55,108 nt of DNA from Pirellula staleyi DSM 6068. GTDB taxonomy: Bacteria > Planctomycetota > Planctomycetia > Pirellulales > Pirellulaceae. The stretch spans positions 1 to 55,108 of the forward strand of contig CAMCMB010000047.1 of assembly GCA_945875845.1 (NCBI GenBank). The letters run 5' to 3'. Shown one piece after another: positions 6,604 to 54,942 of the stretch. Made by a program: the position numbers and the translations under genes. Each line of letters begins with the position of its first letter. The stretch's first letter is position 1. Under the pieces are notes generated by a model. It had not been told where the DNA came from. It ran no database searches and saw only the letters and a list, made by a program, of their open reading frames with translations.

Positions 6604-7520
6604 AAGAACACCTCTAAATCCGAATAGAAACAAAAAAACAAAAAACGCTTCCGCATGTGTGTGTGCGACTGCGCAATTTCGAACTTAATTTTGGGCGCGT
6701 GTGATTGCAGCCTGAATTCCATCTCGGGAGAAAACTTCAAACCTGCGTCTGAAAGCGAGACAACCCCCTATTGAAGCCAACCCCTGAACTGATGTCAACT
6801 AGCAAAATACTCCGGACGAACGGGGCTCAAGGCAAGTTGTCAAGCTCAGTTGTGTGGTGTTTTGGAGAATGTCTGTGCGAAATACCTTGTAAAAGGTTAA
6901 TATGTCGAACGAATGGAGCTCATCGCGTGGCATTGAATTGTCCCCGAAAAATTTTTAGATTTTTCCCGATATTTTTTGACATGTTTTTCGCGTGGCCTTT
7001 TTTGCTCACTCCCTCGCTCAAGCACGGTATTTTGGTAACCCGACGCATAACGGCTTGTTGAAGTAGTTGGTTTTCCGCAAACGATATCAGCGATTGGGCG
7101 TTAGGCCTGGGTTTTAGGACACTGAACCGCCGCTAACGCGGTACGACTAATGAAAGCATAGTGCGGATTTGTGTCGTGGGTCGCTCAAGTTTCGAACGTT
7201 GCCGAGCCAGGAAACTTTCTCACCCATGTGGCAAGCACATGGGGGCCGAGACCGCTGCGCGGTTTGGCTGGGTTTAGCTGACCAAACTTGCTGTCCAACG
7301 ACACAAGGTCGTAGGGGCAGTAGCGCTTGCTGCGCTTGCGTCACGGCGAGTTGGCGACGCCATAGGTTTCAAGTAGCATGCCAAGCAATTGCGAAATAAC
7401 GGGGCACGCCAGCTTTTCGCGGCGGTGGGGGCGGTGGCGACAGCTTTGTGTACGCGGACTTGGGCCTTGGGCCCAAGGTTCGCAACATGCTTGGTGTGCT
7501 AAGAATGGAGTTCAAAGATG
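6604..7520. other. Gene-free interval with AT-rich upstream region and degenerate palindromes
   Basis: No convincing gene is present on either strand. About 6640-7000 is AT-rich, including a T/A-rich stretch at about 6945-6990, and probably carries promoter elements for the DUF1559 gene. About 7080-7500 is GC-rich with small hairpins, for example CCATGTG-GCAAG-CACATGG at about 7223-7241, and looks like decayed repeat sequence. The 96-codon frame at 6771-7061 lacks a ribosome-binding site and protein-like composition. Confidence 0.5.
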
Positions 7521-8867: not shown

Positions 8868-8937
8868 AATTTCAAATGGAGTGAAAATCAATGGGAGAGC
8901 GAGCAATGGTTCGGCAGGAGCCTCACCCTCCCCAAAT
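8868..8937. repeat. R4 repeat, truncated copy
   Basis: GGGAGAGCGAG followed by TTCGGCAGGAGCCTCACC matches one arm of the R4 family (full copies at 31205-31265, 42976-43036, 47637-47693, 49032-49092). The AT-rich flank at 8868-8891 also resembles the flank at about 49005-49031. It lies in the false N-terminal extension of the downstream regulator frame. Confidence 0.65.
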
Positions 8938-11703: not shown

Positions 11704-11741
11704 GAACAATGCGCCTGCATATCAGCCGCAGGGCACTAGCG

Positions 11742-11856
11742 GTCTGTTGATTTAGTGAAGTCGTTATTGGGTAAGGGCGGTACGACGGACTTCCAAGTCC
11801 GTCGATGGGGAATTCGACGGACTTGGAAGTCCGTCGTACCATTAAATCAACAAGCT
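11742..11856. mobile_element. R1 palindromic element with shared TGTTGATTTA ends
   Basis: A long hairpin (11779-11840) with arms GGTACGACGGACTTCCAAG and its complement is bounded by TGTTGATTTA (11745-11754) and TAAATCAACA (11843-11852). ACTAGCG occurs just outside on both sides (11735-11741 and 11857-11863), resembling a 7-bp target duplication. Related copies lie at 22924-23041 and 45856-45973. Confidence 0.7.
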
Positions 11857-11942
11857 ACTAGCGCGTTCCGGTTGATTTGGACCGTACAGCGCCAACCCTG
11901 GAAGCGATGCACGATGCAAGATGACGCATGCTCCGTGTCGTC

Positions 11943-20170: not shown

Positions 20171-20580
20171 AAGAGACTGCTGATTTAATCCGCATTAATA
20201 CCAACCCGACGCGTAACGGCTCGTTGCTTTCATGGGCTGTGAGACGGGGTATTCGAAAGTGGCATGGGCGTCTCGCCCATGGATTCACGAGCGCGCTCGT
20301 GCCACGCGATGGTAACCCGTGCCCGTAAGCGAGGAGCCGACTGCAATCCCTCGCGTAGGCGAGCGGCGTTCTGCCCCTCGCTCACGGGCTTGTTGATTTA
20401 ATCACAACCCGAAGTGTAAACGAGGGATTATTTGCCCCTCACTCACGTTTCGGGTTATGATAAAACCACGGCTTAGGTAAAGACTCATTAAATCAACAAG
20501 CCGTCACGCTTCGGGTTGTGAACGAGCCTTTGCATGAAGCAAATCCACTAAATTAGCAGTCTCTAAAAGGGGCGAGGAGA
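20145..20580. repeat. R10 hairpin interrupted by a composite insertion
   Basis: The left arm (ending CCCCTCTCCCC, about 20145-20167) and right arm (GGGGCGAGGAGAG, 20569-20581) form a hairpin if the intervening segment is removed. The central TAAAA is now present twice, at 20168-20172 and 20564-20568. A more intact R10 copy lies at 54584-54636. Confidence 0.65.
20173..20563. mobile_element. 391-bp composite of nested palindromes, flanked by TAAAA
   Basis: The ends GAGACTGCTGATTTA (20173-20187) and TAAATTAGCAGTCTC (20549-20563) are inverted repeats matching at 14 of 15 positions, flanked by TAAAA on both sides. Inside are an R2 core (about 20203-20330) and an R3 unit bounded by GGGCTTGTTGATTTAAT (20386-20402) and ATTAAATCAACAAGCCG (20487-20503). 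There is no open frame of note. This looks like a non-autonomous element built from smaller elements and inserted into the loop of an R10 hairpin. Confidence 0.65.
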
Positions 20581-22649: not shown

Positions 22650-22749
22650 TTTGAAATACGGTTTTGGCAGCTGTCAGGAAATGAGGCGGTAAGCTTCCAA
22701 GTATAACATGGCCTCCGTTTTGTCAAATGCTGCACATTCCCTCGCTGAC

Positions 22750-23114
22750 CGGCTTGTTGCTTTAATGGGCTGTGACACGGGGTATTCAAAAGTGGCATGG
22801 GCGTCTCGCCCATGGATTCACGAGCGCGCGCTCGTGCCACGCTTTGGTAACCCGACGCTGGCGGGCTTGTTGATTTAATCACAACCCGAAGTGTAAACGA
22901 GGGACTCTTTGCCCCTCACTCACCGGCTTGTTGATTTAGTGAAGTCGTTATTGAATAAGGGCAGTACGACGGACTTCCAAGTCCGTCAATGGGGAATTCG
23001 ACGGACTAGGAAGTCCGTCGTACCATTAAAGCAACAAGCCGTTACGTTTCGGGTTATGATAAAACCATAGCTTAGGTAAAGACTCGTTAAATCAACAAGC
23101 CCTGGCGCGTCGGG
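22750..23114. mobile_element. Nested palindromic elements: R2, R3 and R1 within one another
   Basis: The segment opens with CGGCTTGTTGCTTTAAT (22750-22766) and an R2 core containing the hairpins CATGGGCGTCTCGCCCATG and CGAGCGCGCGCTCG, then an R3 unit starting GGGCTTGTTGATTTAAT (about 22863-22879). R3 is interrupted after GCCCCTCACTCA by a complete 118-bp R1 element (22924-23041) and then resumes at CGTTTCGGGTTATGAT. The uninterrupted R3 at 20386-20503 shows the join. The outside closes with AATCAACAAGCC and CGCGTCGGGTT, the complement of AACCCGACGC on the left. Confidence 0.7.
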
Positions 23115-23218
23115 TTGGGATCCGTTTGAAACGTATGCTAAGCACTTCCGCATGAGTCGTTGGAGTGAAAACAAGCATTATGCACACGGTGTTTACCGCA
23201 GTTTTCGGCAATGAAATG

Positions 23219-29293: not shown

Positions 29294-29387
29294 AATCTAG
29301 CTCAATTCGTATGGATTTCTCGGGTGCACCCAGCATTTCTCTGGTGCACCACGAGCCGAATTTGCTGCTTTTGCGAGTACGCCCTTC

Positions 29388-29608
29388 GTTGTGCGACGCT
29401 CCGCGTCGCAGAAATCACGGCGTCGCAGGAATCACGACGGCTCAGGAATCACGGCGGCTCAGGAATCACGGCGGCTCAGAAATCACGACGGCTCAGAAAT
29501 CACGGCGGCTCAGGAATCACGGCGGCTCAGGAATCGTGGCGGCTCAGGAATCACGGCGGCTCAGGAATCGTGACGGCTCAGGAATCACGACGCGGAGCGT
29601 CGTGCAAC
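29388..29608. repeat. R5 hairpin with an expanded 17-bp tandem array in its loop
   Basis: The left arm GTTGTGCGACGCTCCGCGTC (from 29388) pairs with a right arm ending at 29608 over 21 positions with 2 mismatches. Between them, 29405-29591 is eleven tandem copies of a 17-bp unit, consensus GGCTCAGGAATCACGGC, with small substitutions. The other R5 locus (38240-38363) has one such loop unit per hairpin. Frames read through the array give repetitive peptides but have no ribosome-binding site. Confidence 0.85.
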
Positions 29609-29824
29609 TTAGGGTCGTGCAACTTATTTAGGTAAAAAAATCAACCGAATCGCTCTGGAACCCGGGAAATTCGATCCGACCCTTCCAACCCAACGTATCA
29701 GTAACTTGCGAATTATTTCGCCAGGATGTCGTGAACGCATGACTGGAATCTGCCGTGTGCGTAGATTAGTCTGGTAAGAGCTTATTTTCCCGCGTTTGTT
29801 CTCTCACTTCGAAGTGACACCGGC

Positions 29825-31147: not shown

Positions 31148-31290
31148 GGTTAGGTCACCCCTCTAAATAGGTTTTCCCCGACTTTGCCCAATCATTCCTT
31201 GCTTGGGAGGGTGAGGCTCCTGCCGAACCTTTGCGTCGTAAGCTCGGCAGGAGCCTCGCTCTCCCATTGGTTTCCAACGGATTCGCCACC
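31148..31290. repeat. R4 repeat, full copy with conserved flanks
   Basis: The core hairpin 31205-31265 has arms GGGTGAGGCTCCTGCCGA and CTCGGCAGGAGCCTCGCTC. The flank at 31148-31204 is the reverse complement of 49093-49150 with few differences, so the mobile or duplicated unit is about 150 bp. A short direct repeat, GGCTCCCATTTTGCTC, follows at about 31318-31350. Confidence 0.75.
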
Positions 31291-38230: not shown

Positions 38231-38239
38231 GGCGATTTA

Positions 38240-38363
38240 GTTGTGCGACGCTCCGCGTCGCAGGAATCACGACGGCGGAGCGTCGTGCAACTAAGCAGGA
38301 ATCACGACGGCGGAGCGTCGTGCAACTAAGCAGGAATCACGACGGCGGAGCGTCGTGCAACTT
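38240..38363. repeat. R5 hairpin with 35-bp direct repeats
   Basis: GTTGTGCGACGCTCCGCGTC opens the hairpin at about 38240, followed by three near-identical 35-bp units (38261-38295, 38296-38330, 38331-38363), each containing AGGAATCACGACGGCGGAGC. The right arm of the hairpin is thus present three times. It lies between the convergent MFS and DUF1501 stops and could act as a bidirectional terminator, though no T-tract is present. Confidence 0.8.
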
Positions 38364-39822
38364 AGGCGAGGATATCCGTAACGACATGCGCTTCTTCCAC
38401 GCCCGTCAATCGCGTATTCAATCCCCGGAATTTGTACGTGAACCGACTGTGATCAATCCCTAAGCAATGCAGGATCGTCGCATGAAGATCGCGAAGGTGA
38501 ACCGGTTTCTCCGTAATGTTGTAGCAAAAGTCGTCGGTCGCTCCGTACTCGATGCCACCCCGAATTCCGCCACCAGCCAACCATACCGTGAAGCTTCGAC
38601 CATGATGATCACGGCCCATGCCCGGATCCCCCAACTTTCCTTGGCTGAACACCGTTCGACCAAACTCGGTCGCAAAGACCACTAACGTATCCTCCAGCAT
38701 GCCGAGCCGCTTCAGATCGTTCACGAGAGCCGCAGTCGGTTGATCAATGTCGGAGCATTGGTTCGGTAACTGCTTTGCAATCGCGATGTGTTGATCCCAG
38801 CCACGATGATACAACTGGACGTAACGAACATCGCGCTCCAGCAACCGACGAGCCAACAAACAGTTGGATGCATAGCTACCCGGCCTCTGTACTTCGGGTC
38901 CGTAGGCTTCCAGCGTTTGAGCGGACTCGCTCCGAATATCCGTCAACTCAGGTACCGAGGTTTGCATTCGATAAGCCATCTCGTACGCATTGATGCGTGT
39001 GGTGGTTTCTGGGTCCCCCAATTCCTCGGCTCGCATTTGATTCAGTTCCGCCAAGTCATCCAGAAAATGACGGCGCTGAGAGGGTTCGATACCCGGCGGG
39101 TTTTGCAAATAAAGAACGGGATTGGCGCCTGGTCGCAAACCAACACCTTGGTGCGACGACGGAAGAAATCCGCTTCCCCAGAGCCGCGAAAAAATCGGTT
39201 GGCCAGGGTTCTTGCCAGTCCCTTGCGAAACCATGGCAACAAACGCGGGTAGGTTTTGATTCTCGCTCCCCAATCCATAACTAACCCATGCTCCGATGCT
39301 TGCATAACCGGGTTGTTGATTCCCGGTGTTCATAAAGGTAATGGCTGGATCGTGATTGATGGCTTCTGTGTTGAGGCTCTTGACGATGCAGATATCATCG
39401 GCCAATGTTTGGATTCCAGGGAGCAAATCGCTGATCCAAGTTCCGTGCTGGCCACAGCGTTTTCCAGGCTTCAACGGTGGTACGATCGGATAAGAGGATT
39501 GTCCGGACGTCATTCCAGTCAGTCGTTGTGTTCCCTTGATCGACGCCGGAATCTCTTTTCCTGCATGTTCATGAAGCATGGGTTTGTCATCGAACAAATC
39601 GACATGCGACAGACCACCGCTCTGGAAAAGGCAGACAACTCGCTTGGCCTTCGGGGCAAAGTGGGGCAAGCCTGGTAGACCGCCGATCGGCCCGGTGCCT
39701 TGAGCTCGAAGCAACTCAGGGGACATCAACGATCCCAATGCCATGGCACCCATTCCGATGCTGGATTGGGTCAAAAAAATTCGTCTCAGTTGCCTTTGTC
39801 GTTGTGCAAAGTGATCCATCAT
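38362..39822 (-). CDS. DUF1501 protein (pair 3)
   Basis: 486 aa. [23 protein letters not shown] resembles a Tat-type signal. Family blocks: [76 protein letters not shown] and the C-terminal [23 protein letters not shown]. Its ATG at 39822 overlaps the TAA of the upstream cytochrome gene by one base (TAATG), implying translational coupling. The second codon is also ATG (39819). Exported and unassigned, as for the other DUF1501 copies. Confidence 0.9.
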
Positions 39823-42800: not shown

Positions 42801-43109
42801 TAGCCGCAGATCTGCTTGGCGACTTTTTTCGTCGAAACCATGACACGCAAAGCAGTTCTCGCTCAGGATCGGGCGAATGTCGCGGTTGTAGTCCATGGCA
42901 CGCTCCACAGCATGGCACGGGTTAAAGGACAGCACACCAACGCACGCGGTCCCGAGCAACAGAAATACATTGCAAGGGAGGGTTAGGCTCCTGCCAAACC
43001 ACGGCGTCGTTAGCTCGGCACGAGCCTCGCTCTCCCGTTGGCGTGTCCATCCTGGGATCAACAATTCTGCTGCTCGCCGGAGAGCCATTCGAAGTAGGTT
43101 TGAATTCAT
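39822..43109 (-). CDS. Planctomycete cytochrome c protein, PSCyt1-DUF1549-DUF1553 (pair 3)
   Basis: About 1095 aa from the ATG at 43109. PSCyt1 motif CFACH at 86-90 ([19 protein letters not shown]); DUF1549 with a second CxxCH (CAQCH, in [14 protein letters not shown]); C-terminal DUF1553 ending [12 protein letters not shown]. The signal-peptide core is [15 protein letters not shown] (about 48-62), unusually far from the start, because residues about 25-45 are encoded by an R4 palindrome (42976-43036) lying in frame. There is no ATG or GTG between R4 and the hydrophobic core, so the repeat is either translated or the true start is a TTG in the FLLLG stretch. The next gene, DUF1501, is coupled by TAATG. 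Frame extension to 43226 is unlikely. Confidence 0.85.
42976..43036. repeat. R4 repeat within coding sequence
   Basis: Arms GGGTTAGGCTCCTGCC and CTCGGCACGAGCCTCGC form an R4 hairpin lying in frame in the N-terminal coding region of the pair 3 cytochrome gene. It carries a few substitutions relative to the intergenic copies. Confidence 0.75.
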
Positions 43110-45855: not shown

Positions 45856-46099
45856 CGGCTTGTTGCTTTAATGAAGTCGTTATTGAATAAGGGTGGTACG
45901 ACGGACTTCCAAGTCCGTCAATGGGGAATTCGACGGACTTGGAAGTCCGTCGTACCATTAAAGCAACAAGCCGTCACGCGTCGGGTTACCAAAGCGTGGC
46001 AAGAGCGCGCTCGTGAATCCATGGGCGAGACGCCCATGCCACTTTCGAATACCCCGTGTCACAGCCCATTAAAGCAACAAGCCGTTACGCGTCGGGTTG
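45856..46099. mobile_element. R1 element joined to an inverted R2 element through shared ends
   Basis: R1: CGGCTTGTTGCTTTAAT at 45856-45872, hairpin 45895-45956, ATTAAAGCAACAAGCCG at 45957-45973; 118 bp, the same length as the copy at 22924-23041. Directly after lies R2 in reverse orientation, ending in a second ATTAAAGCAACAAGCCG (46068-46084) and CGCGTCGGGTTG. Two different cores therefore share one terminal motif. Confidence 0.75.
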
Positions 46100-47603: not shown

Positions 47604-47636
47604 AGCGACACGCCGTATCCATTTCTTGTTCGCGCA

Positions 47637-47693
47637 GGGTGAGGCTCCTGCCGAACCATGGCGCATATAGCTCGGCAGGAGCCTCTCCCTCCG
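47637..47693. repeat. R4 repeat, full copy
   Basis: Arms GGGTGAGGCTCCTGCCGA and CTCGGCAGGAGCCTCTCCC form the R4 hairpin. It lies between two co-directional secreted-protein genes and just upstream of a gene lacking an ATG start. Confidence 0.8.
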
Positions 47694-47740
47694 GGTAGAA
47701 ACATTACTTTCGCTCGCCCGTAACAAAAGAGTCAAAACCG

Positions 47741-48946: not shown

Positions 48947-49150
48947 TGTAGCGGAACAGCGCAAGCTGTCCGGTGAGGAGTCTCCAATCACTCCAAGCAT
49001 CTTTGCAATTTAGAATAAATTGAAATTCAATGGGAGGGCGAGGCCCCTGCCGAGCTTACGACGCCATGGTTCGGCAGGAGCCTCACCCTCCCAAGCAAGG
49101 AATGGATTGGGCAAAGTCGAGGAAAACATGTTTAAAGGGGAGACCTCACC
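48947..49150. repeat. R7 left-arm fragment and R4 full copy
   Basis: 48947-48976 is the R7 left arm (GTAGCGGAACAGCGCAAGC) only. R4 core at 49032-49092 (GGGCGAGGCCCCTGCCGAG and TTCGGCAGGAGCCTCACCC) with flanks 49005-49031 and 49093-49150 matching those at 8868-8891 and 31148-31204. No gene. Confidence 0.75.
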
Positions 49151-54680: not shown

Positions 54681-54942
54681 ATGTCTAGCTGCGTCTCGCC
54701 CATGGAGTCACGAGCGAGTTCATGCCAAGCGATGGTAACCCGACGCGTAAGCGATTTGTTGATTTAATATGGTTCGAAATGGCCAAAGGTAACATCACAA
54801 CCCGAAACGTGAGTGAGGGGCGAACAATCCATCGCTAACGCTCTAAAGCTTCGGGTTACCATTAAATCAACAAGTGGTCACGCTTCGGGTTGTGATCGAG
54901 CCTTTGCCGTCAGCAAATCCACTAAATCAGCAGTCCACCAGC
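54681..54942. mobile_element. Truncated composite of R2 and R3-like palindromes
   Basis: R2 fragment (GCGTCTCGCCCATGG, 54691-54705, then GGTAACCCGACGCGTAA) joined to TTTGTTGATTTAAT (54755-54768); a core containing AACCCGAAACGTGAGTGAGG; ATTAAATCAACAAG (54861-54874); and a right end AGCAAATCCACTAAATCAGC (from 54912), continuing AGTC, matching the right end of the 391-bp composite. The matching left end (GACTGCTGATTTA) is missing. Confidence 0.65.

Follow-up and report, generated by a model that had tools for sequence, protein, structure and literature searches.

The interval 22750-23116 of the stretch analysed here (55,108 nt in all, hereafter the window) contains a nest of short palindromic sequences, one inserted within another and carrying the same terminal motif, and it raises the question of what kind of element combines like ends with unlike cores and lands in its own relatives. 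An earlier note on this DNA proposed a modular, mobile family driven by a single recognition sequence. That reading appears largely right as far as sequence comparison can tell, since the same ends, unlike cores, mutual insertion and one recognition system are all found. With a probability of about 0.9, we interpret R1, R3 and R2 as non-autonomous MITEs that would be moved in trans by a DDE transposase of the IS1182 family recognising the inverted end CGGCTTGTTGMTTTAAT.

Organization of the nested elements

From left to right the nest consists of R2, the arm of a P-type palindrome, and R3, with R1 inside R3:

22750-22852, + strand: R2 element, with the end motif at 22750-22766 and hairpins, continuing into a P-type palindrome (left arm)
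22849-22862, + strand: target palindrome, left half, AACCCGACGC-TGGC, with the duplicated tetramer at 22859-22862 (read directly)
22863-23102, + strand: R3, with a P-like core, split by R1; the uninterrupted form is 118 bp
22924-23041, + strand: R1, complete, 118 bp, with two GACGGACTTCCAAGTCCGTC-type hairpins enclosed by inverted ends of 17 bp
23103-23116, + strand: target palindrome, right half, TGGC-GCGTCGGGTT (read directly)

That R1 sits within R3, as had been claimed, is borne out by both coordinates and sequence: the two halves of R3 (22863-22923 and 23042-23102) together match the uninterrupted R3 at 20386-20503 (CACTCAC...GTTTCGGG). The tetramers at the junctions of the nested R1 are TCAC and TTAC, one base off a perfect duplication, and the split R3 is itself flanked by TGGC/TGGC within AACCCGACGC-TGGC-GCGTCGGGTT (read directly). 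The further claim that three cores carry the same terminal motif holds for R1 and R3, which have inverted motifs at both ends, but only in part for R2, which has one end in the window; no right-hand end motif was found for R2 at 22750-22852. The adjoining sequence AACCCGACGCGT, which had been noticed beside the motif, is not part of the element but an arm of P, a distinct palindromic repeat into which insertion usually occurs.

Further copies lie elsewhere in the window:

7051-7067, + strand: lone degenerate end motif adjoining AACCCGACGCATAA, probably a decayed copy
11740-11857, + strand: R1, 118 bp, with a perfect CTAG duplication, in the second common context (Q)
20174-20562, - strand: R0, the older, enclosing element, P-cored and bounded by AGACTGCTGATTTA, with R2 and R3 inside
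20217-20319, + strand: R2 inside R0, with the motif at 20217-20233 (3 mismatches)
20386-20503, + strand: R3, uninterrupted, 118 bp, with a perfect TCAC duplication
45856-45973, + strand: R1, 118 bp, with a perfect TCAC duplication
45976-46084, - strand: R2 adjoining R1, with the end motif at 46068-46084
54752-54877, + strand: R3 variant, 126 bp, in a partial R0 that has its right end at 54913-54936

Other repeats are also present in the window. A 17-bp unit (GGCTCAGGAATCACGGC) forms a tandem array at 29369-29609, and 35-bp tandem repeats with a hairpin related to that array lie at 38237-38364. A second dispersed palindromic family (GGGAGGGTGAGGCTCCTGCCGAACC...GGCAGGAGCCTC) is located at 31194-31270, 42965-43041, 47622-47698, 49021-49097 and 8903-8932, and as far as read is without the end motif.

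Copy number and uniformity

The end motif is strongly enriched. The window has 16 matches at up to three mismatches where 0.18 are expected, and the genome to which it belongs (7.01 Mb; the own genome) has 396 at up to one mismatch (196 on the + and 200 on the - strand), with none for the reversed pattern. The 17-bp inverted end of the MITEs is CGGCTTGTTGMTTTAAT. Units, defined as distinct innermost pairs of convergent ends at up to three mismatches, were sampled from 100 listed places among the 396, the other 296 lying outside that list; 30 of the 100 were taken as loci, six lie in the window, 48 fall in 40 stretches and 16 were left out. The sample was extended by 380 kb from contigs C1 and C2, chosen irrespective of the motif, and by a locus with a transposase remnant.

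The sample holds 86 two-ended units (81 R1, four R3 and one other), 76 of which are exactly 118 bp long. The 380-kb portion from C1 and C2 contains 16 copies of R1, and with the window the count is 19, from which extrapolation gives about 300 per genome. Identity to the R1 consensus averages 95.5% over 73 copies of 118 bp, with conservation of 0.988 and 0.974 in the hairpins, 0.992 in the adjoining GTACC and 0.920 in the left spacer. This uniformity, highest in the hairpin block, would fit a single founding composite that later spread. The consensus is predicted to fold nearly completely (-68.1 kcal/mol, RNA parameters). The elements thus have the hallmarks of MITEs: they are short, gene-less and multicopy, they have terminal inverted repeats in common with an autonomous IS (an intact element in the congener G007 and a remnant in the own genome, see below), and they are associated with a 4-bp target-site duplication.

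Target duplication and the target palindrome

There are several features of the insertion sites. First, 55 of the 86 units (52 of 81 R1 and three of four R3) have a perfect 4-bp direct repeat at their ends, whereas shuffled flank pairing gave 12.2 such units on average and never more than 20 over 200 trials, and none of the 86 has a 5-bp direct repeat; the 31 units without a perfect 4-bp duplication include the nested R1 at 22924-23041. Second, the duplicated tetramer is GTRA at 40 of the 55 sites, nearly all within P (AACCCGACGC-GTRA-GCGAGG), and the two orientations account for 22 and 18 of these insertions. Nine of the 55 have CTAG, mostly in the context Q (AACCGGACG-CTAG-CGCGTTCCGG), and the remaining six have neither; with 15 of the 55 being other than GTRA, P is therefore preferred without being required. 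Third, short complementary arms flank the tetramer in most cases (CGC-GTRA-GCG; ACG-CTAG-CGT). Finally, among the 29 duplicated sites with enough flank, only five fall within a joined open frame of at least 150 aa, as against 89.8% of 1,000 random positions, and by this measure placement is mostly intergenic.

The intergenic placement, the nearly complete fold of R1 and the strong conservation of its hairpin block could also arise if the elements were retained as RNA-level regulators or terminators, their mobility being incidental. Nonetheless, the window has no match in Rfam at gathering thresholds, placement differs between close species, and the ends and duplications indicate transposition; a regulatory role would, moreover, compete with selfish maintenance alone and not with mobility. 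We consider retention for such a role unlikely.

P is a palindromic repeat in its own right, predicted to fold almost fully. A different view is that AACCCGACGCGTRA belongs to the element, which would then have 31-bp ends and no target at all. The own genome has 206 junctions of AACCCGACGCGTRA with CGGCTTGTTG at up to three mismatches and 74 uninterrupted P arms at up to two, figures that do not form a strict ratio because the thresholds differ, and the arm is inverted on both sides in five of the 86 units. Of 27 genomes examined in the genus, however, 18, the own genome among them, have uninterrupted P, even some with no end motif (G021, 77 arms; G001, 27 arms), and the far side of most insertions is GTRAGCGAGG (52 of 86, inner/outer). 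The existence of CTAG sites without P, and the direct duplications themselves, contradict 31-bp ends, and we find that view scarcely credible. In G001, where the genome is without the end motif, two loci (L185 and L186) have P-like palindromes in tandem, with periods of about 116-151 bp.

A probable partner transposase of the IS1182 family

Among 40 genomes surveyed for the end motif, 13 (own included) are positive, all of the own genus, and none of 15 from other genera. A search of 297 genomes of the class for the exact motif was positive in four: the own genome, two of genus g23 (same family), and a distant one with a single match; the exact motif is absent from two own-genus genomes within that draw.

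The link to a transposase comes from the congener G007, which has only two matches to the motif at up to one mismatch. These are inverted and 1,786 bp apart, and the element that they bound encodes a 528-aa transposase of the IS1182 family (NF033551, 353.6 bits, cut-off 270; Pfam DDE_Tnp_1_6, DUF772 and DDE_Tnp_1), flanked by the unequal tetramers GTAA and TCAC. A contig search with this transposase found the G007 element (MAG 'Planctomycetota bacterium isolate REEB455') and no other locus, and within the genus nine of 27 genomes match it at all, mostly weakly or in part. Transposases 41% and 39% identical to it are encoded in G011 and G012, respectively, and likewise exceed the NF033551 cut-off (336.3 and 343.5 bits). 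The element of G012, a third species, has CGGGCTGTCTATTTAGT at both ends and CTTG/CTTG flanks, palindromic only in part; that of G011 has its left end alone on the contig. At one contig edge of G010 the C-terminus of a related transposase (65 aa, 66%) adjoins GGGCTTGTTGATTTAAT, and at another GGGCTTGTTGATTTAAT lies beside what is apparently a similar short N-terminus, such that the two may be halves of one transposase copy.

In the own genome, a profile search found no full IS1182 transposase, the best score being 95.5 bits (cut-off 270). A remnant is present, comprising 62 N-terminal codons with three in-frame stops in a 251-bp unit with such ends. The source of transposase in this genome would be lost or unassembled, so that amplification is probably past. 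The 95.5-bit match itself, a weak IS1182-like ORF at C24:69306-69980 (L250), is unrelated and lacks MITE ends.

It had been suggested that a transposase, recombinase or RAYT gene with the same ends would support mobility; an IS1182-family transposase has been found, but no RAYT link. REP/REPIN elements mobilised by a RAYT (a Y1 tyrosine transposase) deserve consideration because the R1 core resembles a REPIN in having two inverted hairpins. Moreover, G007 has ten regions with R1-type hairpins but no usable end motif: nine have none at up to three mismatches, and the tenth has one unconvincing match 180 bp off. Y1_Tnp has 19 matches in the own genome, 17 of them over the cut-off, and another planctomycete, R. 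baltica, is described as having many tyrosine transposase genes with flanking repeats (PMC3733652). However, instead of a RAYT gene flanked by the repeat, we find the end motif near only one of the 19 Y1_Tnp loci and an R1 hairpin near two, whereas all 19 R1 hairpin pairs in 435 kb of own sequence (16 in C1 and C2, three in the window) are bounded by IS1182-type ends. The ends, the duplication and the transposase are all of IS1182 type, and RAYT-type enzymes are not, to our knowledge, expected to yield inverted ends with a 4-bp duplication. We give mobilisation by a RAYT very little weight.

The preferred reading draws on features read from the sequence, namely ends in common with IS1182, a 4-bp duplication, a preferred site, insertion in both orientations, and nesting. 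A transposase of the IS1182 family would bind the 17-bp inverted ends and mobilise the MITEs in trans, guided by the target palindrome folded into a hairpin or cruciform whose loop is the duplicated tetramer, as described for IS1272. Palindromic targets are reported for some members of the family, and both the G007 IS and the MITEs have palindromic flanks.

Different cores between the same ends

The relatives provide a second sample, of 34 two-ended units from the own genus at places chosen for holding the motif, and ten of these have a perfect 4-bp duplication. Five core types are represented: 17 units are R1-type, 12 are P-cored, three have a core designated R4 (a TTTAACAGTCAGCCGTAGGCGTAC-type hairpin), one is R2, and one, of 149 bp, has another hairpin. 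The R2 unit is two-ended and 172 bp long (L140 in G014), and consists of an end, the R2 hairpins, P, and an end. Beyond the genus, G315 (another genus of the same family) has two exact-motif elements with two further hairpin cores, adjoining similar arms (CCTCGCTTAC-...-TTACGCGTCGGGTT and CTTGCTGAC-...-TGACGCGTC). The motif is therefore not confined to one fixed unit, the case that was to count against modularity, as there are five cores in the genus and two more elsewhere. Two R4-type hairpin elements in G023 (L187 and L188) have GGGCTTGTTGATTTAAT at one end, the other being decayed or missing.

It is possible, although we hold it at clearly less than even odds, that the system is one in which the ends come first: IS1182-type ends would repeatedly acquire resident palindromes, and cores that are themselves targets would drive self-nesting. 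The cores so acquired would be the REPIN-like pair of R1, the P of R3, R2 and R0, and further hairpins in R4 and in the other genus. Repeated capture would follow from the transposase being hairpin-guided and able to exchange stem-loops, a route of core acquisition that we infer.

Nesting and comparison with relatives

R3, through its P-like palindrome, and R2, which continues into P, can both serve as landing sites; nesting would arise because R3, R2 and R0 carry P-type palindromes, each copy adding a landing site. R1 is found within R3 in the window (22924) and at L013 and L001, the last by reading. R0, which when intact is 125 bp with a P core (L237 and L243), gave 16 matches, and with L245 unrelated and L248 and L249 representing one locus there are 14 loci: ten are interrupted by R1, R2 or R3, two are intact, and two are partial (L240 and L247). 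Altogether 14 of the 81 R1 copies lie in a recognisable R2, R0 or R3, the other 67 being unassigned under a 40-nt, 80% rule. R0 is often located between CCCTCTCCCC-type inverted arms (L237, L243 and others), so it may itself occupy a further palindrome. Arrays of R1 copies with a short P loop between them are also present, at L017 (G000:C4, ~150.4-150.9 kb; period 152 bp) and L114 (period 148 bp).

Orthologues of DnaX locate both flanking blocks (20174-20562 and ~22734-23120) in relatives. Both blocks are missing from G014 and G016, two genomes in which the N-terminal part of DnaX shows 91-92% identity; in their dnaX flanks the end motif is absent at up to four mismatches and there is no convincing P (one 2-mismatch match in G016). 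Since the whole blocks are lacking, this represents block gain or loss and does not provide a base-exact empty site. As to the empty and filled sites that the earlier note called for, R0 copies occur both empty (L237 and L243) and filled, but the two closest relatives gave no base-exact pair between strains.

Possible replacement of the target stem-loop

A minority of insertions have outer/outer flanks without the inner stem-loop: five of the 86 own units, seven of the 34 units from relatives by eye (a loose regular expression gave 13, of which six were misread), and the G007 IS. At L241, R1 occupies exactly the position of the 23-bp inner stem-loop of R0 (220 = 125 + 118 - 23). As a minority outcome, the transposase may replace the inner stem-loop of the target rather than duplicate the tetramer.

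An identical product is expected, however, when two ordinary insertions that occupy the two arms of P recombine, and outer/outer flanks might derive solely from this without any IS1272-type loss of the stem-loop. Double insertions do exist (L236, and the arrays at L017 and L114), and recombination between them would give the exact structure of L241, in which R0 is 220 bp. On the other hand, the single IS copy of G007 has outer/outer flanks (AACCCGAAACGTAA-TCACGCGTCGGGTT) and there is no second motif pair with which to recombine, which favours replacement, although ancestral IS copies in G007 could have been lost. We judge recombination as the sole source to be only slightly less probable than an even chance.

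Relationship to known elements

The earlier note knew of no name for these elements, but one exists, that of IS1182-type MITEs. One such element has been published, MITEPye1 of Paracoccus yeei (PMC11578231), and the kind is thus already known. MITEPye1 is described as gene-less and 159 bp long, with 18-bp inverted ends like those of the IS1182 family and 4-bp repeats; it is intergenic, has a long stem-loop fold, and is proposed to be mobilised in trans by IS1182-family ISs. The R1-type elements resemble it in being gene-less and mostly intergenic, with IS1182-type ends, 4-bp repeats and extensive folding. They differ in number and organization, MITEPye1 having one to three copies per chromosome and a single core whereas here there are about 300 R1 copies (extrapolated), several cores, a palindromic target and nesting; the string 'palindrom' is absent from the text of PMC11578231, in contrast to the fixed palindromic target here.

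IS1272 and TnSha1 are described as targeting hairpins, with loss of the stem-loop and no duplication (PMC5678879, PMC4923244), and a 4-bp repeat is given for ISPse1 of IS1182 (PMC3281130). The elements described here share with IS1272 and TnSha1 the transposase family, a hairpin or palindrome target and, with TnSha1, insertion in both orientations, and the outer/outer minority resembles their stem-loop loss. IS1272 and TnSha1 are, however, reported to have neither target duplication nor a primary sequence preference, whereas in the present elements duplication of 4 bp, and insertion at a fixed site, predominate. Bacterial MITEs, as outlined in PMC10969869 and PMC3733652, are likewise about 70-300 bp with inverted ends, no genes and target duplication, but several unrelated hairpin cores for one pair of ends, and targeting of their own palindromes, set the present elements apart from them. 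IS1111 is reported to land in QMITE2 of Coxiella via a GTAG REP palindrome (PMC10969869), although guest and host belong to different families in that case, whereas here they have ends or core family in common. REP dimers inserted in longer palindromes, and other palindromic repeats in R. baltica, have also been described (PMC3733652).

Among the titles and abstract openings that searches of open-access literature gave, we recognised none on these particular planctomycete elements, their several cores or their nesting. As far as the searches went, the novelty lies in the copy number, in several cores per end pair, in a palindromic target that is fixed, and in self-nesting. For a large set of intergenic palindromes in planctomycetes, these results point to a transposase as likely partner and to a rule for the target. 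A few hundred sites in one genome also form a natural catalogue for studying hairpin recognition by IS1182 transposases, including the question of whether duplicating the tetramer and replacing the stem-loop are alternative results of a single reaction. Here a single mobile family would use palindromic repeats as cargo and as targets alike.
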